Origin: Bacteroidia bacterium
GTDB lineage: Bacteria; Bacteroidota; Bacteroidia; SpSt-205
Length of the DNA: 64,000 nucleotides
Reading direction: 5' to 3'
Assembly: GCA_026003215.1 (NCBI GenBank)
Contig: BPGV01000001.1
Span: 461,570-525,569, forward strand
The position numbers and the translations under genes were made by a program. Positions 766 to 63,957 of this stretch are shown in pieces (the first letter of the stretch is position 1; each line of letters begins with the position of its first letter). The notes under the pieces are model-generated. The model saw nothing but the letters and a program-made list of their open reading frames with translations. It was not told where the DNA came from and ran no database searches.

Positions 766-773
766 TATCTTTG
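766..773 (+). promoter_or_regulatory. -7 box TATCTTTG for the Omp85 gene
   Basis: Exact match to the Bacteroidota box TAnnTTTG, 6 bases before a GTG at 780. It covers an upstream TTG (771) that would otherwise extend the reading frame, so GTG 780 is the better start. Confidence 0.65.
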
Positions 774-779
774 GGAGAC

Positions 780-2381
780 GTGTGGGGGCTTTGGCTGCAA
801 GTAGGCCTTATCGGGCTTACAGCGGCGGAAAAGAAAGCGCTTAGGGCGGTAGGAGCCGATACGGTGCGGCGAGATAGTCTTTTGCGCAGTTGGGGCTATT
901 GGGGCTCTGCGGGGGCGCGCTTTCGCTTAGAAGGGCTCACTTGGGAAGGAGATAGTGCCGCACAGGCAGGCTTGCGGCGCTATAGGTGGCGACGGTGGCG
1001 TAAGGCTCCCCTCACGCCTGCGCTCTTTCAGGCTATCCTGCTGGATATGCAGAACCAGCTTACCGCCCAAGGCTACCTCTATGCCACGGTAGCGTGGGAC
1101 CGCTTCACTTGCAACGAAAAAGGCGCCTGCTTTGGGCAGCTCCGAGTACAGGCCGGAGAACAGATTCGGCTGGATACGGTACTCCTGCGAGGTCGTTGGC
1201 CGGCTCCAAAGAGCGCCTTTTACCAGATAACGGGCCTCACGCCTGGCCGGCCCCTCTCGGCGGCCCGCTGGGAAGCCCTCCCCCGTCGCCTGCGCAATAA
1301 CCCCTATGCTACCCTCGTAGATACGCCTAAGCTGTGGCTTTTCCCCGGGCTGGCGTGGATAGAGCTTACCCTCCGCCCCAAAAACAACAACCGCATAGAT
1401 GGGGCCTTATCGCTTTTGCCCAGTGGCAGCGGACCTAACCCCAAGCCGCAAGTGATTGGAAACCTTGAGGTGAGCCTCATCAGCCCCCTGCGGCTGGGGG
1501 AAAAGATAGAGGCGCGCTTTGCCCAGCTCCCTGGGGGTTCGCAGCGCCTTAATCTCGCGCTGGCGCTTCCCTACCTCTTGCGGGGCTTTGTGGAGCTACG
1601 GGGAAGCTTCCTGCTCTGGCGGCAGGATACCTCTTTCCTGACCCGTGAAGGCGAGGCCGAGGTACGCTACCGGCTCGCCGCCAACCTGCTCCTCAAAGGC
1701 AGTTTCTTTTCCACCACCTCAAACCTACTGAATACCCGCCCCTATGAGCAGCGTACTTGGCCCCCTCCGCCTGTATTGGATTTTCGGAGGCGCGGCGTGC
1801 GCTTAGGCTGGGAGTTGGATAATACCGACCTGCGCACAGCGCCTACCACGGGTTGGCGCGTAACCCTCACGGGTACCCAAGGCCAGCGAGGATACCTCCG
1901 CAATCCCGCCTTACAAAAGTTAGAATACCAGCGTCTGCCAGCCGTAGGCGCCTTTCAAGAAGCTTTCGCCCATATAGAAAAGTACTTTTCCCTCAGTCGC
2001 CTGCTGGTGTTGCGCAGCGGACTTCGGGGCTACCACTACTGGGCCAAGGGATTCTTTGAAAACGAACTTCCCCGGCTGGGGGGAGAACACTCCTTGCGGG
2101 GTTTTGCCGAAAATACCCTTCCTGCTGCCGCTTATGTGCAGGGAATAGCCGAGGTGCGCCTCCGCCTGGAAGAAGAAGGCTACTTAGGCGCTTTTGGAGA
2201 GGCTTCTTACCTCTCCCTTTATCCCCAGAACCTCACCCAAGCGCTGGCCGCCGGCATCAGTCTCCAGACCCGCCTGGCAGCAGGGCTTTTCCGAATCACC
2301 TTCGCCAGCGGCCGCCTCCTCCCTAACCCCTGGGATCTACGCCGTACCCTCGTGACCCTCCTCTGGGTCTCAGAGTTTTGA
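780..2381 (+). CDS. Omp85/BamA-superfamily outer-membrane protein
   Basis: A 533-residue protein with an N-terminal hydrophobic stretch, a POTRA-like periplasmic part (roughly residues 50-220) and a C-terminal 16-strand-type barrel of alternating hydrophobic residues. The barrel carries LRGF about 100 residues from the end, the conserved Omp85 motif in the loop that folds into the barrel. It ends in an aromatic residue, as barrel substrates do. The length is shorter than BamA (about 800), so it is more like a TamA/ShlB-type family member with one or two POTRA domains. It is probably involved in protein insertion or secretion across the outer membrane; the substrate is unknown. I chose GTG 780 because a TAnnTTTG promoter box overlaps the alternative TTG at 771. 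Confidence 0.75.
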   Translation: MWGLWLQVGLIGLTAAEKKALRAVGADTVRRDSLLRSWGYWGSAGARFRLEGLTWEGDSAAQAGLRRYRWRRWRKAPLTPALFQAILLDMQNQLTAQGYLYATVAWDRFTCNEKGACFGQLRVQAGEQIRLDTVLLRGRWPAPKSAFYQITGLTPGRPLSAARWEALPRRLRNNPYATLVDTPKLWLFPGLAWIELTLRPKNNNRIDGALSLLPSGSGPNPKPQVIGNLEVSLISPLRLGEKIEARFAQLPGGSQRLNLALALPYLLRGFVELRGSFLLWRQDTSFLTREGEAEVRYRLAANLLLKGSFFSTTSNLLNTRPYEQRTWPPPPVLDFRRRGVRLGWELDNTDLRTAPTTGWRVTLTGTQGQRGYLRNPALQKLEYQRLPAVGAFQEAFAHIEKYFSLSRLLVLRSGLRGYHYWAKGFFENELPRLGGEHSLRGFAENTLPAAAYVQGIAEVRLRLEEEGYLGAFGEASYLSLYPQNLTQALAAGISLQTRLAAGLFRITFASGRLLPNPWDLRRTLVTLLWVSEF

Positions 2382-2391
2382 GTTTTTTATC

Positions 2392-2399
2392 TACCTTAG
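2392..2399 (+). promoter_or_regulatory. -7 box TACCTTAG (one mismatch)
   Basis: Lies 4 bases before GTG 2404, the usual spacing in this window. The TTAG variant of TTTG also occurs before the M43 protease gene at 57383-57390. Confidence 0.5.
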
Positions 2400-2403
2400 G
2401 GCC

Positions 2404-5257: not shown

Positions 5258-5258
5258 T

Positions 5259-6569
5259 ATGGAAGATAGGCTTAGGTACTGGACAGAATGGCTGTATGGC
5301 CGCCTGAAAGCCTACGAACAAAGCGGCCGTAAAGGGCTCAACCCTACCCTTGCGTACATGCAGGCTTGGGATGAGCGTCTGGGCCATCCCCACCGAAAAT
5401 ATCCGATTATCCATGTAGCCGGCACCAATGGAAAAGGTTCCACTGCAGCGTTTTTAGCTTCTATCTTGCAGGCGGCAGGGTACAAGGTGGGCCTCCATAC
5501 TTCTCCACACCTGTGGCGCTTCACGGAACGCATGCTCGTGAATGGCCAAGAACCGTCCATAGGCTGGATAGACGCCTTCCTCCGGCGCTGGCAAGCGGAG
5601 ATAGAAGCTCTCCAGCTCTCCTTTTTTGAAGCGACGGTGGGCATGAGCCTACAATGGTTTGCCGATGCTCAGGTAGATATAGCGGTGGTAGAAGTAGGAT
5701 TAGGCGGGCGATGGGATGCCACTAATATCGTGCAGCCCCTTATCTCTGTAATCACGCCGATTGGATGGGACCATGTGGAGATTTTGGGGCCTACACTTAC
5801 CCACATTGCGGGCGAAAAGGCCGGCATTATCAAGGCAGGGCGACCGGTGGTGGTAGCACCAGCCCAGCCGCCGGAGGCCCTCCCCGTCTTCCAAAAAGTA
5901 GCCTTAGAACAAAAAGCCCCTCTTACCTGGGCTCCGCTGCACGTAGAGGCCACCGATTGGGTAGAAACCCCAGAGGCCTTTTATCGGCGCTTCCATAGCG
6001 TAGATACGGGAAAGTCCTTTGTATCTCCCCTCACCGGGGATTACCAAGCTGTCAATCTGAGCACGGTCCTGAGTACCCTGGCTCTCCTCCGAGCAGAAGG
6101 GTGGGCCATTCCGGAAACGGCCCTCCTCCTGGGCATCCAGCAGGTGACTCACCATACCCGCCTGCGCGGCCGAGCCGAATGGAAAAAAATCGGCAAGAAA
6201 TACCTACTCTTGGATGTAGCTCATAATCCGCACGGGTTCCAAGCTTTGAAATCTTTCTTGAAAATAGTTCCCGTTCAGTTGGAGGGTTTAGTTATAGGCT
6301 TTTCGCGGGAAAAGGACATACGCCAGTGTCTGGAGGTCTTAGGCGGGTGGGAGGGGCTGGTGTTTTTCACGCAGGCGGCGACACCCCGGGCCTTAGAAGC
6401 CTCCGCCCTCCAAGCCTTAGCCCAAAGTGCAGGATACCCCGCCGGCCAGAGCTACCCCACCGTCTCCGAAGCTTTGGCAGCTGCTCTCAAGGCCTGCGAC
6501 ACGGTCTTGGTCACAGGGAGTGTCTTTGTCGTAGCAGAGGCCCTACGCGCAGTGGAGACAACGCCCTAA
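5259..6569 (+). CDS. folC: Bifunctional folylpolyglutamate/dihydrofolate synthase
   Basis: A 436-residue Mur-ligase-family enzyme that adds glutamate to dihydropteroate and folates, using ATP. The ATP-binding loop GTNGKGS is at residues 55-61 in the conserved context HVAGTNGKGSTAAF, followed by the TSPHLWRFTERMLVNG omega-loop region specific to FolC. VGLGGRWDATN and a WDH motif (GWDHVEILG) follow, as does the C-terminal DVAHNPHG ligase motif. The start follows the rlmD stop by one base, so translation is likely coupled. The last 27 bases overlap the end of the convergent fur-like gene. Confidence 0.92.
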   Translation: MEDRLRYWTEWLYGRLKAYEQSGRKGLNPTLAYMQAWDERLGHPHRKYPIIHVAGTNGKGSTAAFLASILQAAGYKVGLHTSPHLWRFTERMLVNGQEPSIGWIDAFLRRWQAEIEALQLSFFEATVGMSLQWFADAQVDIAVVEVGLGGRWDATNIVQPLISVITPIGWDHVEILGPTLTHIAGEKAGIIKAGRPVVVAPAQPPEALPVFQKVALEQKAPLTWAPLHVEATDWVETPEAFYRRFHSVDTGKSFVSPLTGDYQAVNLSTVLSTLALLRAEGWAIPETALLLGIQQVTHHTRLRGRAEWKKIGKKYLLLDVAHNPHGFQALKSFLKIVPVQLEGLVIGFSREKDIRQCLEVLGGWEGLVFFTQAATPRALEASALQALAQSAGYPAGQSYPTVSEALAAALKACDTVLVTGSVFVVAEALRAVETTP

Positions 6570-6923
6570 AAGCAGCACCTTATCTACTTGCTTAGCCCAT
6601 GGCTCTACTATCTGTATCGTATCGGCTGGCAGGCACACCCCCTTACGGCACTTCTCACAGAAAAAATGCGCATGAAAGCCTCCCCCTTCCTTTTCACACA
6701 AGACAAATAGCGGTTCATGGCCAGGCAAATAGACCCGATAGACTAACCCCACTTGCTGCAAAAGGATAAGGTTACGATAGACAGTTACCCGATCCAAACC
6801 GGTGAGGTGCAAGAGTTCTGCGTGGGTTTTTGGGCCTTTTTCTAAGGCTTCTACGATGCAGCGGCGGGGTTCTGTGCAGCGCAGGCCTTTTTGCCGTAGA
6901 GTTTTCTTAAGCTCGCTTTTCAT
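6543..6923 (-). CDS. Fur-family metal-responsive repressor
   Basis: A 126-residue Fur/Zur/PerR-type regulator. An N-terminal winged-helix domain (residues about 5-65) carries the recognition segment LDRVTVYRNLILLQQVGLV. It is followed by the dimerisation/metal domain with HAHFFCEKC (H84, H86, C89, C92), C97 and a terminal CLHC (C122, C125), which form a structural zinc site. The protein is about 15-20 residues shorter than typical Fur. The ATG overlaps the stop of the upstream lipoprotein gene in an ATGA junction, so both are translated from one message. Whether the co-repressor is Fe, Zn or peroxide cannot be decided; the Cys pairs and the lipoprotein partner favour metal acquisition. I chose ATG 6923 because longer versions run through the lipoprotein gene. 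Confidence 0.85.
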   Translation of the reverse strand: MKSELKKTLRQKGLRCTEPRRCIVEALEKGPKTHAELLHLTGLDRVTVYRNLILLQQVGLVYRVYLPGHEPLFVLCEKEGGGFHAHFFCEKCRKGVCLPADTIQIVEPWAKQVDKVLLLGRCLHCA

Positions 6924-7489: not shown

Positions 7490-7493
7490 GCTG

Positions 7494-7501
7494 CAAAGTT
7501 A
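7494..7501 (-). promoter_or_regulatory. -7 box TAACTTTG for lipoprotein-fur unit
   Basis: Exact TAnnTTTG match on the - strand, 4 bases before ATG 7489; predicts a leaderless lipoprotein-fur transcript. Confidence 0.65.
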
Positions 7502-7540
7502 CAAAAAGACCCAATACCCGGCCAATGGTGGCCCCTTTCC

Positions 7541-8343: not shown

Positions 8344-8346
8344 ACG

Positions 8347-8920: not shown

Positions 8921-8929
8921 CGTGCCGTA

Positions 8930-8937
8930 CAAAGGTA
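8930..8937 (-). promoter_or_regulatory. -7 box TACCTTTG for tRNA-His operon
   Basis: Exact TAnnTTTG match on the - strand, 8 bases before the G-1 of tRNA-His. Transcription would start close to the mature tRNA 5' end and continue into DUF2480 and the prohibitin gene. Confidence 0.65.
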
Positions 8938-8949
8938 CAAAGTTTTTTC

Positions 8950-9878: not shown

Positions 9879-9886
9879 CAAAGGTA
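9879..9886 (-). promoter_or_regulatory. -7 box TACCTTTG for rpsP
   Basis: Exact TAnnTTTG match, 6 bases before ATG 9872, in the 18-base gap after pyrF. It suggests rpsP-rimM has a promoter separate from lolA-pyrF. Confidence 0.65.
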
Positions 9887-11294: not shown

Positions 11295-11302
11295 CAAAGG
11301 TA
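11295..11302 (-). promoter_or_regulatory. -7 box TACCTTTG for lolA-pyrF
   Basis: Exact TAnnTTTG match, 4 bases before ATG 11290; predicts a leaderless lolA mRNA. Confidence 0.68.
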
Positions 11303-13020: not shown

Positions 13021-13028
13021 CAAATATA
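13021..13028 (-). promoter_or_regulatory. -7 box TATATTTG for SpoIIE phosphatase
   Basis: Exact TAnnTTTG match, 4 bases before ATG 13016. The 19-G tract begins 33 bases further upstream. Confidence 0.65.
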
Positions 13029-14248: not shown

Positions 14249-14256
14249 CAAAGGTA
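14249..14256 (-). promoter_or_regulatory. -7 box TACCTTTG for the PLP-enzyme gene
   Basis: Exact match, 4 bases before GTG 14244. It occupies almost the whole 12-base gap between lysS and this gene. Confidence 0.66.
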
Positions 14257-15763: not shown

Positions 15764-15771
15764 CAAACCTA
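15764..15771 (-). promoter_or_regulatory. -7 box TAGGTTTG for lysS, overlapping an upstream stop codon
   Basis: Exact TAnnTTTG match, 4 bases before ATG 15759. The TAG of the box is also the stop codon (15771-15769) of the carbon-nitrogen hydrolase gene. Confidence 0.63.
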
Positions 15772-16923
15772 CGGCGAGCGTTCCTTTCGCAACCAGACAC
15801 ATACGACCTCGGCGGGAGTTGTGTAGGTTTTACCCTGCACGACCGCGATAGCTTGTCCATCTGCGCCGAGCTCCCACAGCTGCCCCCGAAGGAATACGTT
15901 CAAGCCCACGGCGGTGCTATCATAGCGCGGCAAGCGCCCCCCTAAGGCATAAGTAAGCCAAGCTTGGCCTTCGGTGAGGACTGTGTCCCGGACGTCCGGC
16001 GGTGCGGGCCAACCGCTGTAGCCGCGCCAGGGTCGCCCCCAGCAGGAATCCCCCATCAAGTACGAGGGAACCACCACTATATCCACCTTACCCAGCGCCT
16101 GATAGCTCTGCGGAAACCAACTATCCGCACAGATAAGCACCCCTAAGCGTCCTAAGCTTGTTTCAAAGGTAGGGAGCGCTTCCACTCGGCCCGGCCGCGT
16201 GAAGGTAAGCTCAGTAGCTATGGGAAAAGCCTTCCGGACAATCTGCGGGAAAGGTCGGCCATCGGGGCCATAGACGACGGAGACATTTTCCAGCGGGGCG
16301 CCGGGCTCTACCCGCAGCGAGTCGCCTTCTATCCGCGCCCCCGGCAACACAATAGAACCCGCTACCAGCGTAACCCCATAGGCCCGGGCCAGCTCGGAAA
16401 AAGTACGATGATACACGCGCGCCATTTCTGCAGCCTTCCCCTGGAAGGCGGCCACTGCGGCGGGGTCCTTCCACCCTTCGGCCTGAGCAGCCCGATAAGC
16501 CCGCCAAAAACGCCACGGATGCTTAAGCACAAACCACCGCAAAGACTCTTCCAAGCGCGCCCGGATATAAGCCGCGGCCGGCGCTTCCAAAAGGACCAGC
16601 CAAGTGCCAATATACTCGGGAAAAACCACAATCGTTTTAGGCGTAAGGTACCCTTTGTGCTTGGCATACTGCAAGTACAGCTCCATCTTCCGCTTGAAGC
16701 TCTCTGGGCAGCCATATTCGCCCGGCTCTACCTCGGGCTGGATGCCTACCAAGCTGGCCGTAGCCGAGTCCCGGGAACCAATCTCTGTGCCTTCCATAAC
16801 GGTCCGCTCCGCCATAAAGACCAGCTCTACGCACTCAGGCGAAGAGGTTACCATAAAGTATCCCCCTATCAGCCCTACCACGACCAAACCCGCTATTAAG
16901 AAGGCTAAGCGCCTCTTACGCAT
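15769..16923 (-). CDS. Membrane-anchored carbon-nitrogen (nitrilase-superfamily) hydrolase
   Basis: A 384-residue protein with an N-terminal membrane anchor or signal (residues 6-26) and a nitrilase-superfamily domain. The catalytic triad is visible as Glu 103 (VVFPEY), a Lys in IVRKAFP and Cys in GVLICADSWFP. The domain carries an insert rich in aromatic and basic residues between Glu and Lys. The position of the anchor suggests the active site lies outside the cytoplasm, unlike most amidases of the family. Substrate unknown; it resembles free-standing periplasmic relatives of the apolipoprotein N-acyltransferase hydrolase domain. Its stop codon lies inside the lysS promoter box. Confidence 0.75.
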   Translation of the reverse strand: MRKRRLAFLIAGLVVVGLIGGYFMVTSSPECVELVFMAERTVMEGTEIGSRDSATASLVGIQPEVEPGEYGCPESFKRKMELYLQYAKHKGYLTPKTIVVFPEYIGTWLVLLEAPAAAYIRARLEESLRWFVLKHPWRFWRAYRAAQAEGWKDPAAVAAFQGKAAEMARVYHRTFSELARAYGVTLVAGSIVLPGARIEGDSLRVEPGAPLENVSVVYGPDGRPFPQIVRKAFPIATELTFTRPGRVEALPTFETSLGRLGVLICADSWFPQSYQALGKVDIVVVPSYLMGDSCWGRPWRGYSGWPAPPDVRDTVLTEGQAWLTYALGGRLPRYDSTAVGLNVFLRGQLWELGADGQAIAVVQGKTYTTPAEVVCVWLRKERSP

Positions 16924-16927
16924 CCTT

Positions 16928-16935
16928 CAAAGGTA
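16928..16935 (-). promoter_or_regulatory. -7 box TACCTTTG for the carbon-nitrogen hydrolase
   Basis: Exact match, 4 bases before ATG 16923; part of a 42-base divergent promoter region. Confidence 0.67.
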
Positions 16936-16952
16936 CGCTTCTGGAAGGAAAG

Positions 16953-16960
16953 TACCTTTG
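16953..16960 (+). promoter_or_regulatory. -7 box TACCTTTG for the phosphohexomutase gene
   Basis: Exact match, 5 bases before GTG 16966. The divergent box on the other strand is 17 bases away. Confidence 0.67.
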
Positions 16961-16965
16961 CGGCC

Positions 16966-18336
16966 GTGACCCTTATTTTTTCGGCGTCGGGGCTACGGGG
17001 TACGATAGGCGGCCGCCCCGGCGAAAATCTCACCCCCATAGATGCGGTGCAGTGGGCCGCCGCCTGGGGCTACTGGCATTATCAACGGCGAGGGCCTGTA
17101 CCCCTGGTGATTGGCCAAGACGCCCGTCCCAGCGGGATTATCCTACGCCCTTTGGTAGGTCAGACCCTGCGCGCCTTCGGCCATACCGTCCTGGATGTAG
17201 GCCTCACCACCACCCCTACCCTGGAAATGGCTATCCCCCACCTCCAGGCCCAGGGCGGTGTAATACTCACCGCCTCCCATAACCCCGCCGGCTGGAACGC
17301 CCTCAAATTTCTAAATGAAGAAGGCGAGTTTCTGGCGCCTGAAATCCTCCAGAAGATAGCGGCCCTGAAAGAGGAGGTGATTTTCCCCGCTATCGAAACG
17401 CCGGGACCTATGTCTTTCCCCGAAAACCTTCTCACTCACCACATCCAGCGCCTCCTCGCTCGCCCAGAAGTCCTCGCAGAAAAGATAGCTCGCCTTTCTC
17501 TGCGCATCGTGGTAGACGGCATCAACAGCGGAGGGGCCATAGCCGTGCCTGCGCTCTTAGAGGCGTTAGGCGTGCGGGATATCTACCTGCTGAATGGCGA
17601 ACCGAACGGCCACTTCGCCCATCCCCCCGAACCCCTCCCAGAAAACCTTACCCAACTGGCCGAAGCCGTACGCACCCACAAGGCTCACCTGGGAATAGCC
17701 GTGGACCCCGACGTGGACCGGGTAGCTTTCTTTCTACCCACGGGCGAACCCTTCGGCGAGGAATACACGCTTGTAGCAGTAGCAGACTATATTCTTTCTC
17801 GGCAAAAAGGCCCCGTCGTGACCAACCAATCCACCACCTTGGCCGTGCGCAAAGTAGCCGAAAAGCATGGCGTGCCTTTCTATGAGAGCCGCGTGGGAGA
17901 GTACTACGTGGTCCAAAAAATGAAAGCCGTCGGCGCCGTGATTGGCGGCGAAGGGAATGGCGGCGTGATATGGCCAGCGGTACATTATGGACGCGATGCG
18001 CTGGTGGGTATAGCCCTCTTCCTCAGCGCCTTAGCGGAAGCAGGGGGGGATGCCCTGGCTTTGCGCGCCCAGTACCCTTCTTTCGTGATGCGAAAAGAAA
18101 AGCTCCCCTTGGCTACGCCGCTACCCTCTGAGGTATGGCCAAAGCTTTTGGAAGCTGCACCGGAGGCCACCCCTTCCTTAGAGGATGGCCTAAAACTAAG
18201 CTGGCCAGACAAGTGGATACACCTTAGGGCCTCTGCCACGGAACCCCTCCTGCGGATTATCGCCGAAGCCCCCACGACCGAGGAGTGTGAGACGCTCATT
18301 CACGCATGGAAAGGGTACCTTCAAGCCTATCTCTGA
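16966..18336 (+). CDS. Phosphoglucosamine/phosphomannomutase family enzyme
   Basis: A 456-residue alpha-D-phosphohexomutase. The active-site phosphoserine loop is TASHNP at residues 102-107, the metal loop DPDVDR is near residue 245, the sugar-binding loop GEGNGG (IGGEGNGGVIWP) is near 330, and a C-terminal phosphate-binding RASATEPLLRIIAEA follows. The N-terminal FSASGLRGTIGG matches the GlmM/ManB start. These enzymes interconvert hexose 1- and 6-phosphates for cell-wall or surface sugars. In many Bacteroidota the homologue serves as phosphoglucosamine mutase, but the substrate is not proven by sequence. GTG 16966 is the start, just after a promoter box. Confidence 0.88.
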   Translation: MTLIFSASGLRGTIGGRPGENLTPIDAVQWAAAWGYWHYQRRGPVPLVIGQDARPSGIILRPLVGQTLRAFGHTVLDVGLTTTPTLEMAIPHLQAQGGVILTASHNPAGWNALKFLNEEGEFLAPEILQKIAALKEEVIFPAIETPGPMSFPENLLTHHIQRLLARPEVLAEKIARLSLRIVVDGINSGGAIAVPALLEALGVRDIYLLNGEPNGHFAHPPEPLPENLTQLAEAVRTHKAHLGIAVDPDVDRVAFFLPTGEPFGEEYTLVAVADYILSRQKGPVVTNQSTTLAVRKVAEKHGVPFYESRVGEYYVVQKMKAVGAVIGGEGNGGVIWPAVHYGRDALVGIALFLSALAEAGGDALALRAQYPSFVMRKEKLPLATPLPSEVWPKLLEAAPEATPSLEDGLKLSWPDKWIHLRASATEPLLRIIAEAPTTEECETLIHAWKGYLQAYL

Positions 18337-21379: not shown

Positions 21380-21387
21380 CAAAGGTA
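21380..21387 (-). promoter_or_regulatory. -7 box TACCTTTG for the TPR operon
   Basis: Exact match on the - strand, 5 bases before ATG 21374. Confidence 0.66.
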
Positions 21388-21417: not shown

Positions 21418-21425
21418 TATGTTTG
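21418..21425 (+). promoter_or_regulatory. -7 box TATGTTTG for the + strand TPR operon
   Basis: Exact match, 4 bases before ATG 21430. It overlaps an upstream in-frame GTG, which is therefore not the start. Confidence 0.67.
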
Positions 21426-33297: not shown

Positions 33298-33305
33298 CAA
33301 AGGTA
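33298..33305 (-). promoter_or_regulatory. -7 box TACCTTTG for the division/cell-wall operon
   Basis: Exact match on the - strand, 5 bases before GTG 33292 of ftsW. The only clear box in this nine-gene run. Confidence 0.66.
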
Positions 33306-34174: not shown

Positions 34175-34182
34175 CAAAGATA
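34175..34182 (-). promoter_or_regulatory. -7 box TATCTTTG for the omega-amidase
   Basis: Exact match on the - strand, 5 bases before ATG 34169. Confidence 0.66.
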
Positions 34183-41259: not shown

Positions 41260-41267
41260 CGAAGATA
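41260..41267 (-). promoter_or_regulatory. -7 box TATCTTCG (one mismatch) for nuoN
   Basis: TAnnTTCG, 5 bases before ATG 41254. The same TTCG variant precedes the epimerase gene at 43829. Its presence suggests nuoN is the first gene of this unit rather than the last of a nuo operon. Confidence 0.5.
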
Positions 41268-41318: not shown

Positions 41319-41326
41319 TACCTTTG
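41319..41326 (+). promoter_or_regulatory. -7 box TACCTTTG for the haem-binding protein
   Basis: Exact match, 3 bases before ATG 41330. The box overlaps an upstream in-frame TTG, which is therefore not the start. Confidence 0.66.
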
Positions 41327-41893: not shown

Positions 41894-43771
41894 ATGCCAA
41901 AGATCGTAGGAATAGACCTGGGAACGACCAATTCGGTCGTAGCGGTAATGGAAGGAAACGAACCCAAAGTAATAGTCAATCAAGAAGGGAAGCGCACCAC
42001 CCCTTCGGTGGTGGCTTTCAAACCGGATGGAGAAAGGCTCGTAGGCGAGCTGGCTAAACGCCAAGCCGTCATGAACCCCGAAAATACCATCTACTCTATC
42101 AAGCGCTTCATGGGGAAAACCTATGACGAAGCCATAGAGGATGTGCGCCGCATGCCTTATAAAGTGGCTCGAGGCCCCAACAATATCTGCCAAGTTCAAA
42201 TCGGAGACAAACTCTATACGCCCCAAGAAATTTCCGCCATGATCCTCCAAAAGCTGAAAAAAGCAGCGGAAGATTATTTAGGGGAGCCCGTCACGGAGGC
42301 GGTCATTACGGTACCGGCGTACTTCAACGATGCGCAGCGTAAGGCCACCAAGGAAGCGGGCGAGATCGCCGGCTTGAATGTACGGCGCATCATTAACGAA
42401 CCGACAGCGGCAGCTCTGGCCTACGGCGTAGATAAACGCCTCAAACAAGGGAAGATCGCGGTCTTTGACTTAGGGGGGGGCACCTTTGACATCTCCATCT
42501 TAGAGGTAGGCGACGGCGTCTTTGAAGTACTCGCTACCAGTGGCGATACCCACTTAGGCGGGGATGACTTTGACATGCGCATCGTGAACTGGCTCGTAGA
42601 AGAGTTTCTGCGGGAAGAAGGCGTAGACCTGCGCAAGGACCCGCGCGCCATGCAGCGCCTGCGCGAAGCCGCCGAACAAGCTAAAATAGAACTTTCCAAC
42701 CAACAAAGCACCGAAATCAACCTCCCTTACATCACCGTAGATCCCCGCAAAGGCCCCCTAAACCTGCAAAAGACCCTTACCCGGGCCAAGTTTGAAAGCT
42801 TATGCGAAGACTTATATCAGCGGTGCTTAGAGCCCTGCCGCAAAGCCATAGAAGCAGCTCGTCTTTCCCCCAAAGACATAGACGAGGTAATTTTAGTCGG
42901 TGGCTCCACCCGCATGCCCCGCATACAAAAGCTCGTAGAGGAGTTCTTTGGTAAAACCCCTAATAAAAGCGTCAACCCCGACGAAGCCGTAGCCTTAGGC
43001 GCAGCGGTACAAGCAGGTGTCCTCTCCGGGGAAGTACAAGGCGTCCTCCTCCTGGATGTGATACCCATTTCGTTAGGGATTGAAACACTGGGCGGTGTCT
43101 TTACCAAGCTCATAGAAGCCAACACCACCATCCCTACCAAGCGCACGGAAATCTTTTCCACAGCGGCAGACAATCAGACCACCGTTGAAATCCATGTCCT
43201 CCAAGGAGAGCGCTCGATGGCGGCCGATAACCGAAGCTTAGGCCGGTTTTACTTAGATGGCATACCGCCTGCTCCACGCGGCGTACCCCAAATAGAAGTG
43301 ACCTTCGATGTGGATGCCAACGGAATCCTCACCGTCACCGCTCGGGACAAAGCCACCGGCAAACAACAATCCATCCGCATAGAAGCGGGCACAGGCCTGA
43401 GCAAAGAAGAGATTGAACGCATGAAGCGCGAAGCCGAGCTCCATGCGGCCGAAGACCAAAAGCGCAAAGAACTGGTAGAAAAACTCAACCAGGCCGACGC
43501 GATCATTTATCAAGCTGAAAAGCTCCTCCGAGAACAAAGCGATCGCCTCCCCGCCGCAGACAAAGAGCGATTAGAAGGCCTAATACGAGACCTGCGCGCG
43601 GCCCACGGAGCCAAAGACGGCGCCAAAGTAGATACCCTCCTGCCGCAACTCTCTACCCTGCTCATGTCCCTGGGCCAGCGAGCCTACCAAACGGGCGATG
43701 GACACGCCAGTGGCTCTTCCGCCGGCGCTACCGAAGTAGAATACGAAGAAATCCCCTCCGACAAAAGCTAA
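41894..43771 (+). CDS. dnaK: Molecular chaperone DnaK (Hsp70)
   Basis: A 625-residue Hsp70. The nucleotide-binding domain starts [19 protein letters not shown] and includes [51 protein letters not shown] and [19 protein letters not shown]. The linker VLLLDV, the substrate-binding domain ([18 protein letters not shown]) and the helical lid follow, with an acidic tail EVEYEEI before the end. Full length. No exact TAnnTTTG is seen at the start (AAGGTTTG ends 13 bases before the ATG). An inverted repeat sits upstream, so this gene differs from the usual leaderless pattern. A strong terminator follows. Confidence 0.97.
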
Positions 43772-43828: not shown

Positions 43829-43836
43829 TACTTTCG
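43829..43836 (+). promoter_or_regulatory. -7 box TACTTTCG (one mismatch) for the epimerase gene
   Basis: TAnnTTCG, 5 bases before ATG 43842, starting 2 bases after the dnaK terminator. Confidence 0.48.
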
Positions 43837-50631: not shown

Positions 50632-52062
50632 TCAGGAAAGCTTTTCTAAAAGACGGCGTTGAACCTCTCGGGGGTCGGCCTTCCCCCCAGCACGTCGTAC
50701 CACTTGCCCTACAAAGAAGCCTAAGAGTCCCGCCTTGCCCTTACGATAAGTCTCTACTTTGTCTGGATTTTCTGCGAGCACTTCTTGAATCCACTGGTCT
50801 ATTTGCGCCTCATCTTGTAAGAGCAGTAGGTCTTTTTCTCGAGCGATCTCCGCAGGGTCAGCCTGGGGCCGACGAACCAACTCCGGAAAAATTTCCTCCC
50901 GCGCCGCCGTGAGGCTAACTTGGCGCTGCTCCACTAAGGCGATGAGGGTATAAAGCTTCTCTGGCAGAAGTGGGAAAGCCTCCATAGGTATAGCCGCGGC
51001 ATTCAGGTAAGCTCGGACGGGCCCATTTATCCACGAAGCCGCCGCCTTGGGCGAGGCCCCCAGCGATACTAAGGCCAGGAAGTACTCCGCATACGGCCTA
51101 TCCTCGGTAAGGAGCAGCGCATCGTCGGCAGAAAGGCCATACCGCTCCAGCATGCGGTCAAAGAGCCCCTCCGGCAGCTCAGGCAGGCTCTGGCGCAGGC
51201 GTTGGAGCTCCTCCCTCTCAAGGCGCACCGGCGGTAGGTCCGGCTCAGGGAAATAGCGGTAGTCGTCGGCGGTTTCTTTTTCACGCAAGGGCACCGTCTG
51301 CCGCCCATCCCAGGTGCGCGTCTCTCGCAGCACCTGCCCTCCCTCGCTAATCAAACGCACCTGCCGCTCAAACTCGTACGCCAAAGCTTTTCCCAAAGCC
51401 GAAATAGAGTTTAGGTTCTTTATCTCCACCCGTACCCCAAACTCCGACGAACCCACCGGCCGCACAGAAATATTGGCATCACAGCGTAAGCTCCCCTCCT
51501 CCATATTGCCATCACATATCCCTAAGAAGCGTACGAGCTTCCGAATAGCCGTGAGATAGGCCATTGCTTCCTCCGGCGTACACATATCCGGCCGGCTCAC
51601 AATCTCCACCAACCCTATCCCCGCCCGATTGAAGTCCAATAACGTATCAAACGGGTCTTGGTCATGGAGGCTTTTCCCTGTGTCTTCCTCCAGCTGGAGC
51701 CGCTCTATGCCGACGCGCTTTTTGGTCCCATCGGATAGGCGTATGTCTATATAGCCATTTTTTGCAATAGGAGCCGCTTCTTGGGTGATTTGGTAGCCCT
51801 TAGGCAGGTCTGGATAGAAGTAGTTTTTACGAGAGAAGTAAAACTCCTGCGCAATCTCACAGTTTAACGCCAGTCCTAAGCGTACGACCGCCTCCACACA
51901 AGCTTTATTGAGCACGGGCAAAGTACCCGGGTAGCCCAGCGACACCACTGAGACGAAGCGATTGGGGCGTTCGCCAAAGGTGACCGCTTCTGGCGCAAAG
52001 ACTTTGGCGCGGGTTTGAAGCTGGGCATGCACCTCCAGTCCTACTACCATCTCGTAGCTCAT
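50632..52062 (-). CDS. gatB: Aspartyl/glutamyl-tRNA amidotransferase subunit B
   Basis: A 476-residue subunit of GatCAB, which converts Glu-tRNA-Gln (or Asp-tRNA-Asn) to the amide. It starts YEMVVGLEVHAQLQTRAKVF, and has PGTLPVLNKACVEAVVRLGLALNC, FSRKNYFYPDLPKGYQI, GIGLVEIVSRPDMCTPEEA, and the tail domain (GKAGLLGFFVGQVVR). gatA and gatC are not in the window. It is the first gene of a unit that continues into the ABC/HlyD/TolC exporter. Confidence 0.95.
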   Translation of the reverse strand: MSYEMVVGLEVHAQLQTRAKVFAPEAVTFGERPNRFVSVVSLGYPGTLPVLNKACVEAVVRLGLALNCEIAQEFYFSRKNYFYPDLPKGYQITQEAAPIAKNGYIDIRLSDGTKKRVGIERLQLEEDTGKSLHDQDPFDTLLDFNRAGIGLVEIVSRPDMCTPEEAMAYLTAIRKLVRFLGICDGNMEEGSLRCDANISVRPVGSSEFGVRVEIKNLNSISALGKALAYEFERQVRLISEGGQVLRETRTWDGRQTVPLREKETADDYRYFPEPDLPPVRLEREELQRLRQSLPELPEGLFDRMLERYGLSADDALLLTEDRPYAEYFLALVSLGASPKAAASWINGPVRAYLNAAAIPMEAFPLLPEKLYTLIALVEQRQVSLTAAREEIFPELVRRPQADPAEIAREKDLLLLQDEAQIDQWIQEVLAENPDKVETYRKGKAGLLGFFVGQVVRRAGGKADPREVQRRLLEKLS

Positions 52063-52066
52063 GCAG

Positions 52067-52074
52067 CAAAGATA
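52067..52074 (-). promoter_or_regulatory. -7 box TATCTTTG for gatB
   Basis: Exact match, 4 bases before ATG 52062; the divergent FkbM box is 6 bases away. Confidence 0.66.
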
Positions 52075-52080
52075 AGCCCT

Positions 52081-52088
52081 TACTTTTG
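52081..52088 (+). promoter_or_regulatory. -7 box TACTTTTG for the FkbM methyltransferase
   Basis: Exact TAnnTTTG match, 7 bases before ATG 52096, in a 33-base divergent gap with gatB. Confidence 0.6.
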
Positions 52089-52095
52089 CTTGCTC

Positions 52096-52944
52096 ATGCC
52101 GTATGTACGCGGAAAACGCTGGATAGACACCCTCGCCTTAGGGATAAACTTAGCGTTTTGGCTGCCCCGCCGCTGGTGGTGGCAGTGGCGCTTAGGCAGT
52201 CGCACGGCTGCCTGGAAAAAACTCATGGAAAGGCCGCACTATCACTGGAGCCGGTGGCCTGTCTCCCTGAAAGGACGCTGGTTTCGCCTTCCCACCGGCA
52301 TCTACGCCGACGAAGCCGGGCTGATATGGAGTATAGCCCAAAAGCAAGGCGATCGCTTCCCCTCCCACTGGCTGAAAAAGCTCTCTACCAGTGAAGTAGG
52401 CATGGACATAGGCGCGCATCGAGGCTATTGGACTCTTACCTACGCCCGAAACGCCCCCACCCTCCAACAAGTATTCCTCTTTGAACCTCACCCAGAAAAC
52501 TACGCCTACCTCCTCCAGAACCTCGCCCGCAATCACTTTTCCCAAGCGATACCTCTACCTTATGCGGTGTGGAATAAACCCACCCGCTTAGAACTCCGCG
52601 CACAACCTGCCCAGACAGAGCATGCTTCCTTTGGCTTCACTGTGACAGAAAAAAGTACTGGTAGCATACCTGCTACCTCTGCAGATGCCTTTGTAAAAGC
52701 GCTGGCCGTAAAACGATTAGATTGGATAAAAATTGATGCCGAAGGCGCCGAAGTAGCTATCGTAGAAGGAGCACAAGAAACCCTCCAGACCCTGCGCCCT
52801 ACTCTATGGATGGAGATCCATGATACTTGGGAGGAAATAGAAAAAAAACTACATGCCGTAGGATATGTCATCCGAGAAGCCATCCGCCATCGTAGTGAGG
52901 GTCCCTACAAAGAGACGGGCTACCTCTGGGCCGAACCGGCCTGA
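52096..52944 (+). CDS. FkbM-family methyltransferase
   Basis: A 282-residue SAM-dependent methyltransferase. The SAM loop is VGMDIGAHRGYWTLTYAR, followed by VFLFEPHPENYAYLLQNL, and the FkbM-type DWIKIDAEGAEVAIVEGAQETL (KIDxEGxExxVLxG pattern) is present. The N-terminal 110 residues are a basic, Trp-rich extension that may contact membrane or nucleic acid. Such enzymes O-methylate sugars or small molecules; substrate unknown. I chose ATG 52096 for its position relative to the promoter box; ATGs further upstream lie within gatB on the other strand. Confidence 0.82.
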   Translation: MPYVRGKRWIDTLALGINLAFWLPRRWWWQWRLGSRTAAWKKLMERPHYHWSRWPVSLKGRWFRLPTGIYADEAGLIWSIAQKQGDRFPSHWLKKLSTSEVGMDIGAHRGYWTLTYARNAPTLQQVFLFEPHPENYAYLLQNLARNHFSQAIPLPYAVWNKPTRLELRAQPAQTEHASFGFTVTEKSTGSIPATSADAFVKALAVKRLDWIKIDAEGAEVAIVEGAQETLQTLRPTLWMEIHDTWEEIEKKLHAVGYVIREAIRHRSEGPYKETGYLWAEPA

Positions 52945-55042: not shown

Positions 55043-55050
55043 CAAAGGTA
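55043..55050 (-). promoter_or_regulatory. -7 box TACCTTTG for the barrel-protein/sdaAB unit
   Basis: Exact match, 4 bases before ATG 55038, between it and the small coiled-coil gene. Confidence 0.66.
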
Positions 55051-55262: not shown

Positions 55263-55263
55263 C

Positions 55264-57378: not shown

Positions 57379-57382
57379 ACCA

Positions 57383-57390
57383 CTAAGGTA
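57383..57390 (-). promoter_or_regulatory. -7 box TACCTTAG (one mismatch) for the M43 protease
   Basis: Same TTAG variant as at 2392, 4 bases before ATG 57378. Confidence 0.5.
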
Positions 57391-57397
57391 AAAAAAC

Positions 57398-57405
57398 TAC
57401 CTTCA
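57398..57405 (+). promoter_or_regulatory. Weak -7-like box TACCTTCA
   Basis: Two mismatches to TAnnTTTG but at the usual position, 4 bases before GTG 57410. Low confidence as a stand-alone call. Confidence 0.3.
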
Positions 57406-57409
57406 CCCC

Positions 57410-59575: not shown

Positions 59576-60586
59576 CCGGTTTTCTTGGGTCTCAGCTACT
59601 TCCGAACGTTTGCGGAGAGCATCTAATGCCCGAAGCAGTTCCGCCGGCGTGCGCGCTTCCATAAGGGATAAGCGCAGGGCCTTCGCATGGGGTAGCCCCC
59701 GAAAGTAGCCCGTATAATGCTTCCGCAGTTCTATGACGGTCTTTTCTGGGGGCTCTGGGAGAAGCCGTAGCGCATACGCTAAATGCTTTTTTACCATTTC
59801 TATCCGCTCTTCCAAAGAAGGCGGCGATAAAAGCTCTCCCGTCTGAAAGTAATGCTTTATCTCTCGGAAAATCCACGGGTAGCCAATAGCCGCTCTTCCT
59901 ATCATGAGGGCGTCGGGCTTGTAGGTATGGTATAGGTGATAGGCTTTTTGGGGGCTATCTATGTCACCATTCCCGATAATCGGGATATGTATGCTTGGGT
60001 GGGCTTTGAGGCGGCCAATCCATTCCCAGCGGGCCTCGCCGGCATAGCCATCAGCTTTGGTGCGGGCATGTACCGCCAAGGCCTGAATACCCACTTTTTG
60101 CAAGCGCTCGGCGACTTCCAGGATGCGGATGCTGTGCGCATCCCACCCCAAACGCGTCTTTACCGTCACAGGCAAAGTCGTGTATTCTACGATCGCCCGC
60201 GTAAGGGCTTCCATCTTGTCTATATCGCGGAGGATGCCGGCGCCGGCGCCTTTACAGACCACCTTACTGACAGGACAGCCGTAGTTGATATCCAGCCAAT
60301 CCGGCTGCACTTTTTCTATCAAGCGCGCAGCCTCGCGCATGGGTTCTATCTCCCCACCAAATATTTGTATCGCTACGGGTCTCTCTTCGTACCAAATCTG
60401 CGCTTTCTTCCAGCTTTTCTCTATCTGTCGTATAAGGGCCTCACTGGAAATAAACTCTGTGACCACGGCATCCGCGCCCATTTCGCGGCACAGTCGCCGG
60501 AAAGCCGCATCACTCACGTCCTCCATGGGAGCCAGGAAGAGCGGCGGTACCGGCCCCACCCGCCACACTACACGTCCAATCCGCAT
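59555..60586 (-). CDS. dusB: tRNA-dihydrouridine synthase (DusB type)
   Basis: A 343-residue FMN enzyme that reduces uridines in tRNA. FMN-binding and catalytic parts: FLAPMEDVSDAAFRRLCREMGADAVVTEFIS, QIFGGEIEPM, WLDINYGCPVSKVVCKGAGAGIL (catalytic Cys in GCPV), VKTRLGW, VHARTKADGYAGEARW and IIGNGDIDS, then DALMIGRAAIGYPWIF. Length and motifs fit the DusA/B/C group; B is chosen for the YGCPVSKV form. Divergent from cysS with only 35 bases between starts. Confidence 0.88.
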   Translation of the reverse strand: MRIGRVVWRVGPVPPLFLAPMEDVSDAAFRRLCREMGADAVVTEFISSEALIRQIEKSWKKAQIWYEERPVAIQIFGGEIEPMREAARLIEKVQPDWLDINYGCPVSKVVCKGAGAGILRDIDKMEALTRAIVEYTTLPVTVKTRLGWDAHSIRILEVAERLQKVGIQALAVHARTKADGYAGEARWEWIGRLKAHPSIHIPIIGNGDIDSPQKAYHLYHTYKPDALMIGRAAIGYPWIFREIKHYFQTGELLSPPSLEERIEMVKKHLAYALRLLPEPPEKTVIELRKHYTGYFRGLPHAKALRLSLMEARTPAELLRALDALRKRSEVAETQENRLPALQE

Positions 60587-60591
60587 TCAAA

Positions 60592-60599
60592 CAAAGATA
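60592..60599 (-). promoter_or_regulatory. -7 box TATCTTTG for dusB
   Basis: Exact match, 5 bases before ATG 60586. The cysS box begins 11 bases away on the other strand. Confidence 0.67.
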
Positions 60600-60609
60600 C
60601 GCATAAGCC

Positions 60610-60617
60610 TATCTTTG
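60610..60617 (+). promoter_or_regulatory. -7 box TATCTTTG for cysS
   Basis: Exact match, 4 bases before GTG 60622. The two divergent boxes in this 35-base gap are 10 bases apart. Confidence 0.67.
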
Positions 60618-60621
60618 CCCC

Positions 60622-62091
60622 GTGAGCCTCTACCTCTACAATACCCTCACCCGCAAAAAAGAACCCTTCACCCCTCTCCACCCCCCCTATGTGGGTATGT
60701 ATGTCTGCGGCCCGACCGTATATGGCGATCCCCACTTAGGCCATGCACGGGCGGCGATTACCTTTGATGTGCTCTTTCGGTACCTGCGCTACTTAGGGTA
60801 TCAAGTGCGCTACGTGCGGAATATCACCGATGTTGGCCACCTGGAAGGCGATGCCGACGAAGGCGAAGATAAAATCCTCAAAAAAGCCCGCCTGGAAAAA
60901 GTAGAACCCATTGAAATAGCCCAGCGCTACACTGCGCTGTACCACAAAGCCATGGATGCCCTAAATGTCCTCCGCCCCTCCGTAGAACCCACCGCCACAG
61001 GCCACATCGCCCAGCAAATCGCCATGATTGAACGCATCCTCCAAAACGGCTACGCCTACGAAGTCAATGGCTCTGTCTACCTGGATGTGGAAAAGTACCG
61101 GCAAGATTACCCCTACGGCATCCTGTCCGGCCGCAATATTGAAGAGCTGATAGCGGGCAGCCGAGAGCTGGAAGGCCAAGCAGAGAAAAAACACCCTTGG
61201 GACTTTGCCCTGTGGAAACGCGCCGAACCCACCCACCTTATGCAGTGGGACTCCCCTTGGGGTCGAGGCTTCCCCGGCTGGCACATAGAATGCTCCGCCA
61301 TGAGCATTCATTACCTGGGCGTACCGTTTGACATTCATGGCGGAGGGCTGGACCTCATCTTCCCCCACCACGAAGCCGAGATCGCCCAAGCTCACGCCTG
61401 CTTCGGCCCAGAAGCCCACCACCAAGCCCGCTTCTGGATACACAATAACCTCGTCACGATTGAAGGCCAAAAAATGAGTAAATCCCTCGGAAACTTCATC
61501 ACTATTGAAGAAATCTTTACCGGCAGACACCCTAAACTTTCCCGCGGCTACCCGCCTATGGCATTACGCTTCCTTTTCCTGCAAGCCCACTACCGCAGCA
61601 CCGTAGACTTTTCCGAAGAAGCCCTATCCGCAGCTTATAAAGGCTACCTCCGTCTCATGACCGCTTTTGAACGCCTTAAGGAGGTGCGCCCGCATACCTA
61701 CTCATCCTTTTCGGTAAGCGCTTGGCGAGAAAGAGTTTTTACCGCTCTACATGACGACCTCAACACAGCCGCGGCTTTAGCGGCATTTTTTGAGCAAACA
61801 GAGGACATCCTCAGATTGCGTCGCCAAGAAATCTTCCTCACGCCGGAAGACCTTTCCCTCCTCCAAAAAACCTGGCAGGAAGTGCTAATAGACATCTTAG
61901 GCCTTATCCCCCTCACTCAAGTAGAATGGCACCGCTGGAAAATCGCCATAGAACTGCTTATTCGTCTGCGCAGAGAAGCCCGAGCCGCTAAAAACTACAG
62001 CTTAGCTGACCTCCTGCGTGATGAACTGCAAAACATGGGGGTACGCCTCTTAGACTTTCCCGATGAGACCTTGTGGGAAATGCACGAATAA
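60622..62091 (+). CDS. cysS: Cysteinyl-tRNA synthetase
   Basis: A 489-residue class-I synthetase charging tRNA-Cys. The HIGH motif is [10 protein letters not shown]; the zinc/cysteine pocket uses [23 protein letters not shown] and [10 protein letters not shown]; the KMSKS motif is [11 protein letters not shown]. Length is normal. GTG 60622 is used as start because it yields [15 protein letters not shown], the family N-terminus, 4 bases after the promoter box. The M28 gene follows 10 bases later. Confidence 0.95.
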
Positions 62092-62101
62092 CTAAGCTTT
62101 C

Positions 62102-63082
62102 ATGTCACTCTCGTATCACATAGCCTGTATAGTAGGGATATTTTTGGTGGGGTGCTCCTCGCCTACCCCCTCTGCGTCGCCGTTATCGGCGGCTTCGCTG
62201 ACCCTGAACCCCAATCGTCCTACTTTTTCTGCCGATAGCGCGTATGCCTATATTGAAAAGCAGCTTTCGTTTGGCCCCCGTATTCCGGGCACGGCCGCGC
62301 ATCGGGCGTGTGGCGATTGGATAGTGGCGGAGCTGCGGCGGTGCGGCGCCCAAGTCGTAGAACAGCAAGGACACTTCAAAGGCACACCCATCCGAAATAT
62401 TATTGCCTCGTTTGGGGGGGACTCCCCGGGCAAGCGCATACTGCTTTCGGCCCACTGGGACTCGCGTCCATGGGCGGACCGGGATCCCCATACCCCCCAA
62501 GCCCCTGTGCCCGGCGCCAACGATGGGGCCAGCGGCGTCGCCGTCCTCTTAGAGATAGCCCGCCTCCTCAGTCAAAAGCCCCTTCCCTATCCCGTGGATA
62601 TCCTCTTTTGGGATGCGGAAGACCTGGGGCGTGAAGGAATAGAAGACTCGTACTGTTTGGGTTCCCAGTTTTGGCTAAGCCGGCCTGAACCTTTTCCCCC
62701 TGCTGCCTATGCGTGGGGCATACACCTGGATATGGTGGGGGCAGCGCATTCCACCTTCCTCCAAGAGGGATACAGCCGCCAATATGCCTCAACTCTCGTA
62801 GAAAAGCTCTGGCAAGTAGCTCGCCAGCTCGGCTATGGTCAGCTCTTCCCTGCGCTGCCCGGCGACCCTATCATAGATGACCCATACTACCTCTCCAGCC
62901 GAGGCGGCATCCCCATGGTGAATATCATCGCCCGAGACCCACTGGGGAAAAACTTTTTCCCGCAGTGGCACACCACCCAAGATGACCTTTCGCACATAGA
63001 CAAAGCCACCCTCCAAGCCGTAGGCGAAACCCTGGTAGCCTTCCTTTACACGTACACCCCTACACACCTCACCGCTCAATAG
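62102..63082 (+). CDS. Glutaminyl-cyclase-like M28 lipoprotein
   Basis: A 326-residue lipoprotein (lipobox FLVGC, Cys 18) of the M28 zinc-peptidase fold. Metal-site residues: LSAHWDSRP (His), GANDGASG (Asp), DILFWDAEDLG (Glu), IHLDMVGAAHSTF (Asp) and FFPQWHTTQDDLSHID (His). The pairing of LDMVGA and WHTTQDD is closer to glutaminyl-peptide cyclotransferases than to aminopeptidases. Such an enzyme forms pyroglutamate at N-terminal Gln of exported proteins, and several proteins here are predicted to be cut before Gln. The exact activity is inferred. Follows cysS by 10 bases. Confidence 0.78.
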   Translation: MSLSYHIACIVGIFLVGCSSPTPSASPLSAASLTLNPNRPTFSADSAYAYIEKQLSFGPRIPGTAAHRACGDWIVAELRRCGAQVVEQQGHFKGTPIRNIIASFGGDSPGKRILLSAHWDSRPWADRDPHTPQAPVPGANDGASGVAVLLEIARLLSQKPLPYPVDILFWDAEDLGREGIEDSYCLGSQFWLSRPEPFPPAAYAWGIHLDMVGAAHSTFLQEGYSRQYASTLVEKLWQVARQLGYGQLFPALPGDPIIDDPYYLSSRGGIPMVNIIARDPLGKNFFPQWHTTQDDLSHIDKATLQAVGETLVAFLYTYTPTHLTAQ

Positions 63083-63127
63083 CCCCTTTTTCCACAGTTT
63101 TTACCCCCCCAGAAAAAAGAAAAAGCC

Positions 63128-63135
63128 TACCTTTG
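63128..63135 (+). promoter_or_regulatory. -7 box TACCTTTG for the M23/LysM gene
   Basis: Exact match, 3 bases before ATG 63139. It overlaps an upstream TTG that would extend the frame. Confidence 0.66.
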
Positions 63136-63138
63136 GGC

Positions 63139-63957
63139 ATGCAGAGAAGTTTCTGGCTACTCTCTCTGCTACTAAGCTGGGCTTTTGGTACCGACTCGCT
63201 CAAAGTAGCGAGCTCCATACGAATGCTGTATGCCTCCTTAGAAAGCCTTTCTGAGCAGCTGCCCAAAGTATGGTGGGATCGTCAGTGGGTAGGGGCTTGC
63301 AGACCTAAAGATATTCGCTCTATCATAGCTCCCGTACGCATAACCTTACAAAAACCTGAGGAAGGCTTCTACTTTGTGGTGCCTATCCAAGGCGCACTCA
63401 ATTCGGGGTTTGGGTTTCGTCGGGGCTGGCAGTTCCACTTTGGATTAGATATTGACCTTAAGGTAGGCGACACCGTCGTAGCAGCCATGGACGGCGAAGT
63501 GCGTTTAGCTGGCTATGACCCTGGGGGATACGGCTACTTTTGCGTGATAGCCCACCCCAACGGCGTAGAGACCGTCTATGGACACTTTTCTCGGCTATTA
63601 GTCACGCCTGAACAGCTTGTAAAAGCGGGGGACCCCATTGGCTTAGGCGGGAGTACCGGCCGGAGCACAGGCCCCCACCTACACTTCGAACTACGCTTCA
63701 TGGGCGAACCCATAGATGTGAGCGCTTTGATAGACTTCCCCTCCGGCGAGCTTATAGAATCTGAACTCTATATCACTCCCGAGACTTTTGCCCACCTAAG
63801 TACCCTCTCAAGCGCTATGTACCATGTGGTACGCCGGGGCGAGTCGCTTTATACTATTGCCCGGCGGTACGGTGTGACGGTACGCTACCTCTGCGCCCTG
63901 AATGGCCTTTCCACACGGAGCATCCTCCGACCGGGGCAGTACTTGCGCGTCCGATGA
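63139..63957 (+). CDS. M23-family peptidase with LysM domain
   Basis: A 272-residue exported cell-wall protein. A short signal (FWLLSLLLSWAFG) is followed by the M23 (lysostaphin-type) domain with GFGFRRGWQFHFGLDIDL and the zinc pair in PHLHFEL, and then a C-terminal LysM (MYHVVRRGESLYTIARRYGVTVRYLCALNGLS). All M23 ligands (His and Asp of HFGLD, His of HLH) are present, so it should be an active murein endopeptidase. It overlaps pth by 4 bases (ATGA). Start at ATG 63139. Confidence 0.87.
   Translation: MQRSFWLLSLLLSWAFGTDSLKVASSIRMLYASLESLSEQLPKVWWDRQWVGACRPKDIRSIIAPVRITLQKPEEGFYFVVPIQGALNSGFGFRRGWQFHFGLDIDLKVGDTVVAAMDGEVRLAGYDPGGYGYFCVIAHPNGVETVYGHFSRLLVTPEQLVKAGDPIGLGGSTGRSTGPHLHFELRFMGEPIDVSALIDFPSGELIESELYITPETFAHLSTLSSAMYHVVRRGESLYTIARRYGVTVRYLCALNGLSTRSILRPGQYLRVR

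Follow-up and report, generated by a model that had tools for sequence, protein, structure and literature searches.

The subject of this report is TAnnTTTG, the -7 promoter element of Bacteroidota, in a stretch of 64,000 nucleotides (the window; positions 461570-525569) of Bacteroidia bacterium GCA_026003215.1, a single contig of 2,268,343 bases that is labelled G000 below. This box stands only a few bases before the start codons of many genes, and we consider it highly probable (roughly 0.9) that a -7 box lying this close to the start codon makes leaderless messenger RNAs (mRNAs) in the lineage of G000. The near-start pattern itself is confirmed as real and extends genome-wide. The prediction of a preliminary description of the window, that the RNAs begin at or next to the start codon and have no Shine-Dalgarno (SD) region, is supported by the box position, its bias toward promoter-first genes, the lack of SD-like words and the conservation of the spacing between species, all of which fit leaderless mRNA. 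Judged from these sequence features, there is a strong case that the leaderless form is usual for promoter-first genes in the uncultured family of G000.

For the statistics, the window was combined with 40 spread 20-kb stretches (864 kb in total, 38% of the 2.27-Mb genome), and whole-genome pattern counts were used beside this sample. Genes were called with a simple home-made hexamer-based caller, in which starts were picked among about 2.5 candidates per gene. Spacing means the number of bases between the end of TAnnTTTG and the start codon, a box at spacing 3-8 is called a near box, and rearranged versions of the motif served as decoys. An exact near box was found in 202 of 679 genes, against a decoy mean of about 4, and the spacings peak sharply at 4; other 6-base distance bins stayed low and flat (18-30 genes per bin). 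When ATG triplets were counted irrespective of called starts, distances 3 to 8 from the box gave 22, 83, 35, 32, 30 and 21 occurrences, with about 8-9 per distance further out, and the Poisson P of the peak at distance 4 was about 2e-51. In the same start-agnostic count GTG had its single peak at distance 4 (34 vs about 9), and TTG, GTA and CTG gave no distance peak. With starts chosen by coding potential only, TA..TTTG at -12, which 71 of 668 genes have, exceeded all other gapped hexamer/position combinations. A core promoter element is thus found at a fixed short distance from the start codon far above chance, as in the leaderless genes of Zheng et al. (2011). The variant TAnnTTCG is also truly enriched in the sample (13 vs 1.1).

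In the window, an exact near box precedes 20 of the 57 called genes, the 28 rearranged motifs give 0-2 and other 6-base distance bins contain 1-4 genes. One-mismatch boxes were assigned to six further genes, some of them doubtfully; one-mismatch calls at 5358 and 29145 were rated doubtful. The 14 exact box/start pairs listed in the preliminary description are all present, and its estimate of about 23 genes is fair. The range of spacings is 3-8 rather than 3-7, with the mode at exactly 4 rather than at 4-5. The sharp genome-wide peak at 3-6 bases, which it had proposed as a sequence test, was obtained by a very large margin and withstood the decoy, distance and start-choice controls.

We took divergent genes as the promoter-first class and, as the contrast class, genes that follow a co-directional neighbour within 20 bp. 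The exact near box was found in 56% of the former vs 12% of the latter; when one mismatch was allowed, the background-corrected shares were 68% and 18%. Such concentration of the signal at the first gene of a unit is again a character of leaderless genes (Zheng et al., 2011), and operon-internal genes are, as had been suggested, an exception. The phrase "mainly leaderless" is therefore right for promoter-first genes (56-68% of divergent genes) and not for all genes, because only about 30-36% of the latter are involved. The same comparison bears on the possibility that the box serves chiefly as a signal for translation, namely as a Bacteroidota-specific motif recognised by the ribosome, and that the mRNAs are leadered. 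A fixed distance from the start codon would suit such a motif, as would a phylum that does without SD and must rely on other signals (PMC6847099), but closely following genes, which need a translation signal equally, carry the box far less often than promoter-first genes, and the phosphoglucomutase gene pgm has no box in relatives where another gene runs into it. Since the motif moreover matches the known sigma -7 element exactly (PMC6847099, PMC7366714), we regard this explanation as very improbable.

Another explanation to be weighed is that transcripts begin upstream at other promoters and have normal leaders, the near box being secondary or fortuitous. Exact boxes do occur at larger distances, at the aforementioned low flat level; however, among 172 divergent genes, 96 have an exact box at 3-8 and only 16 have one at 9-60 with none at 3-8. 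Furthermore, of the 86 divergent pairs 42 have a near box on each of the two genes; the median distance between their start codons is about 46 bp (mostly 27-55 bp), and further promoters or leaders could hardly be accommodated there. Ordinary leaders made from upstream promoters are accordingly hardly credible as the general explanation, and leaderless mRNA is the reading we retain. In the pair 60586/60622 the opposing boxes are 10 bp apart, so that what lies about 33 bases upstream of either promoter is already the beginning of the opposite gene. At such back-to-back promoters (e.g. 60586-60622, 52062-52096 and 16923-16966), whose start codons commonly stand 27-48 bp apart, the polymerase footprints must overlap.

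The position of the transcription start was approached through promoters of Flavobacterium johnsoniae, which are numbered T-12...G-5 with 4-5 nucleotides (nt) from the box to the mapped transcription start site (TSS) (PMC6847099). The upstream profile of G000 has the same -12/-5 register; on this numbering, position +1 at spacing 4 falls on the A of ATG or the G of GTG, and RNA would start at or near the start codon. GTG starts pile up at spacing 4 (26 of 91, vs 10 of 100 at spacings 5-8; P = 0.0014), and purines are enriched 5-6 bases past the box even when the start codon is 7-8 bases away, both of which agree with the predicted +1. In the 864-kb sample all gene classes, operon-internal genes included, are T-rich (0.34-0.40) at the base just upstream of the start codon, where at spacing 7-8 only 12-19% of genes have a purine. 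Several points weigh against the leaderless reading: the TSS is carried over from F. johnsoniae and could be off by a few bases; an extra upstream promoter could yield leadered forms of some mRNAs; and the caller is home-made and allows about 2.5 starts per gene, an error that is bounded by the decoys.

The box is identical in every letter to the known Bacteroidota sigma -7 element, as the preliminary description had recognised, and in this respect it is what is expected of a Bacteroidota primary-sigma promoter. The RpoD of G000 is a 292-amino-acid open reading frame with Sigma70_r2, a length typical of the short RpoD-type sigma factor (about 290 amino acids). The other expected part of such a promoter, the -33 element TTTG, showed no excess 13-34 bases upstream of the 202 boxes, where only a preceding G and, near -18, a slightly AT-rich stretch were visible. 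The earlier remark that no consistent -33 element can be seen is thus right, but its absence is a trait common to F. johnsoniae, in which this element is weak and not clearly discernible either (PMC6847099), and not a peculiarity of G000.

We also examined signals for translation. SD-like words at -16 to -9 are absent from all 202 near-box genes, as is characteristic of leaderless genes, largely because the box occupies those positions. In operon-internal genes SD-like words are present without excess (14 vs 13.7 expected), and the A-rich upstream pattern of F. johnsoniae is not visible in these genes of G000, where start-call errors could blur it. The genome encodes ribosomal protein S1 domains and bS21. 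A search of G000 for 16S, intended for the anti-SD, gave no match, and the hits of a pattern search included no confirmed 16S; a run of 2,500 N in stretch L013 suggests masking.

An additional check was to examine whether the box is kept at orthologous starts of related genomes. For cysS, ten genomes of the genus were compared (77-100% protein identity): nine have the box exactly 4 bases ahead of GTG and the tenth has it 5 bases ahead of ATG, the upstream DNA having otherwise diverged; no box was present upstream of cysS in the sister-family genome. The cysS start thus stays GTG, not ATG, in nine of the ten genomes, which places G at the predicted +1, and this conserved GTG possibly reflects regulation by the start nucleotide. 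For gatB, two named relatives (the metagenome-assembled genomes (MAGs) SKW77 and SKYB116) keep the 4-base spacing and have GTG instead of ATG; start codons of cysS and gatB were confirmed by homologous N-termini. For pgm, the box or its TTCG variant is found in most relatives; three genomes that lack it have the end of another gene 1-6 bp upstream. A further case is rpsU, which in many Bacteroidia has an extended SD serving autoregulation by bS21 (PMC9976891). Upstream of rpsU in the family of G000 no extended SD was found; each of the 11 family genomes that gave a match has a box 4-7 bases before ATG, one of them in the TTCG form. By its sequence rpsU would be leaderless in all 11 family members examined, and an upstream SD would then be impossible, so that SD autoregulation could not work there, although G000 encodes bS21.

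These observations can be arranged in the following mechanism. The Bacteroidota primary sigma factor reads TAnnTTTG as the -7 element, and in the lineage of G000 this box would have been pulled against the coding sequence. At spacing 4, and also at 3 and 5, RNA polymerase would then start on the first base (A or G) of the start codon, and at spacings 5-8 it would start 1-4 bases ahead of that codon; the resulting mRNAs would be leaderless. Because an SD or any other leader signal is impossible where there is no leader, ribosomes with formylmethionyl-tRNA presumably recognise the 5'-terminal AUG or GUG directly, as is generally known of leaderless mRNAs elsewhere.

How unusual this usage is was assessed by the share of genes with a near box in other genomes, bearing in mind that the comparator gene samples are small: 26% in the same genus, 40% in the same family (55 genes), 20% in the sister family (G393), 18% in G434 (MAG SFB_649D_100_82), 11% in G622, about 7% in G041 and G144, 4% in Ginsengibacter and a Sphingobacteriales genome taken together, and 3% in the AT-rich genome G154. 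In G532 (family f91) the share is 31% of 70 genes, yet only 23% of divergent genes. The trait is most pronounced in the family of G000 (26-40% of genes). Raw counts of the pattern across the phylum had made the sister family look free of the trait, to which the gene-based test gave 20%; since AT-rich genomes make raw pattern counts unfair, we did not base the family limit of the trait on them. Both G532 and G434 lie outside the order of G000 and have strong enrichment of the box near starts, and are candidates for independent leaderless lineages.

It might be argued that all Bacteroidota are equally leaderless and that this ordinary pattern has been overlooked. The clear near-box enrichment in the aforementioned uncultured Bacteroidia (G532, G393 and G434) speaks for this, as does the statement of Zheng et al. 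that their own Pribnow-based method, which found leaderless genes in 1 of 37 Bacteroidetes/Chlorobi genomes (2.4% of its genes), may miss Bacteroidetes (PMC3160421). However, mainstream genomes that we sampled have a near box in 0-7% of genes, and among 396 Bacteroidia genomes the pattern TACCTTTGN(3-8)ATG is densest in the genus of G000 (G000, 194 vs 7 in the control; next lineages, 70-83 in 2.5-3.2 Mb). TSS maps of cultured species likewise show low shares: 5' untranslated regions shorter than 10 nt are 3.7% in Bacteroides thetaiotaomicron (PMC7366714), leaderless mRNAs are 5.5% in F. psychrophilum (PMC9723704) and leaders of 10 nt or less are 13% in F. johnsoniae (PMC6847099). We therefore think it unlikely that the pattern is common to the whole phylum. 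The expectation that such heavy use would be unusual agrees with these published shares and needs the addition that lesser forms are present in other uncultured Bacteroidia. As for other views on this group, the authors of StartLink and GeneMarkS-2 class it among users of AT-rich non-canonical ribosome-binding sites (PMC9581028), and one comparative study, judging from base composition, suggested that Bacteroidetes use leaderless mRNA and/or S1 (PMC5397173). Among the papers that we searched there was no report of leaderless-dominated Bacteroidota.

Leaderless genes as such are already known in Deinococcus-Thermus, Actinobacteria and archaea. The apparent novelty here is leaderless dominance in a Bacteroidota lineage by way of the phylum's own -7 box, graded across neighbours and accompanied by loss of the SD at rpsU. 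Leaderless mRNAs of Actinobacteria (e.g. Mycobacterium) begin with the start codon and use both ATG and GTG; SD is also used there, whereas G000 has no SD signal in any gene class. In Deinococcus-Thermus (PMC12340547; 39% on average in PMC3160421), a core element likewise stands a few bases before the start in about one third of genes and the upstream element is often absent, as in G000, but the element there is TANNNT of standard sigma-70. The conserved letters of G000 are TA..TTTG of the Bacteroidota sigma and do not represent this Deinococcus-type -10 motif. The sigma-ABfr promoters (TTTG / TAnnTTTG) of Bacteroides fragilis and F. johnsoniae have the same -7 box as G000; in F. johnsoniae, however, 87% of leaders are longer than 10 nt (mean 33), whereas for the majority of promoter-first genes in G000 leaders of 0-4 nt are predicted.

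Taken jointly, the observations lead us to a wider reading, to which we lean with some reserve: leaderless initiation would be the default of the family, with a lone -7 box at the start codon; divergent genes would share back-to-back boxes, with the upstream contact region of each promoter within or close to the first codons of the neighbouring gene; SD-based bS21 feedback would be gone; and operon-internal genes would start without a recognisable signal. If this is true, leaderless use is a graded and repeatedly evolved state in a phylum of SD-blind ribosomes. Bacteroidota ribosomes keep the anti-SD but hide it. A lineage seemingly without leaders offers a natural contrast, next to a sister family and mainstream genomes of lower shares, for studying the need for a leader and the evolution of leaderless initiation. 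The box can also be used for setting gene starts in these MAGs; pipelines built on AT-rich leaders for the phylum may miscall some of them.

Boxes and starts in the window are listed below. The box at 15764 is a weaker and doubtful case, because both N positions are G and it sits within a tight string of genes. The preliminary description rightly named dnaK as an exception; having no box at 3-8 nt, it is probably leadered.

Table. TAnnTTTG-type boxes and the starts that follow them in the window (spacing in nt; TM, transmembrane; PLP, pyridoxal phosphate)
Feature	Sequence	Positions	Strand	Spacing	Start	Gene or remark
-7 box	TATCTTTG	766..773	+	6	GTG 780	Omp85-domain protein
-7 box	TAACTTTG	7494..7501	-	4	ATG 7489	
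-7 box	TACCTTTG	9879..9886	-	6	ATG 9872	ribosomal protein S16
-7 box	TACCTTTG	11295..11302	-	4	ATG 11290	LolA-like
-7 box	TATATTTG	13021..13028	-	4	ATG 13016	PAS/SpoIIE
-7 box	TACCTTTG	14249..14256	-	4	GTG 14244	Cys/Met metabolism PLP enzyme
box	TAGGTTTG	15764..15771	-	4	ATG 15759	class II tRNA synthetase
-7 box	TACCTTTG	16928..16935	-	4	ATG 16923	divergent from 16966
-7 box	TACCTTTG	16953..16960	+	5	GTG 16966	phosphoglucomutase/phosphomannomutase
-7 box	TACCTTTG	21380..21387	-	5	ATG 21374	TPR protein
-7 box	TATGTTTG	21418..21425	+	4	ATG 21430	TPR protein; divergent from 21374
-7 box	TACCTTTG	33298..33305	-	5	GTG 33292	FtsW/RodA family
-7 box	TATCTTTG	34175..34182	-	5	ATG 34169	carbon-nitrogen hydrolase
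one-mismatch box	TATCTTCG	41260..41267	-	5	ATG 41254	proton antiporter/NADH:quinone oxidoreductase TM family
-7 box	TACCTTTG	41319..41326	+	3	ATG 41330	
dnaK (HSP70)		41894..43771	+			exception, no box at 3-8 nt
one-mismatch box	TACTTTCG	43829..43836	+	5	ATG 43842	NAD-dependent epimerase
-7 box	TATCTTTG	52067..52074	-	4	ATG 52062	GatB
-7 box	TACTTTTG	52081..52088	+	7	ATG 52096	FkbM methyltransferase; divergent from gatB
-7 box	TACCTTTG	55043..55050	-	4	ATG 55038	
one-mismatch box	TACCTTAG	57383..57390	-	4	ATG 57378	M43 peptidase
-7 box	TATCTTTG	60592..60599	-	5	ATG 60586	tRNA-dihydrouridine synthase family
-7 box	TATCTTTG	60610..60617	+	4	GTG 60622	CysS
-7 box	TACCTTTG	63128..63135	+	3	ATG 63139	M23 peptidase/LysM

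Apart from the box, two arrays resembling clustered regularly interspaced short palindromic repeats (CRISPR) were seen in other stretches of the same genome. One (L003:14076-15889; G000:C1, about 134076-135889) contains 28 copies of the repeat GTTTTTATCGGCCCATTATGGAGTGGAAAC at a spacing of about 66 bases. The other, on the minus strand near the end of L027 (G000:C1, about 1640000), has a different repeat beginning with GTTTCAATCCCACATTGG, of which about 30 copies are present in the stretch, also at a spacing of about 66.

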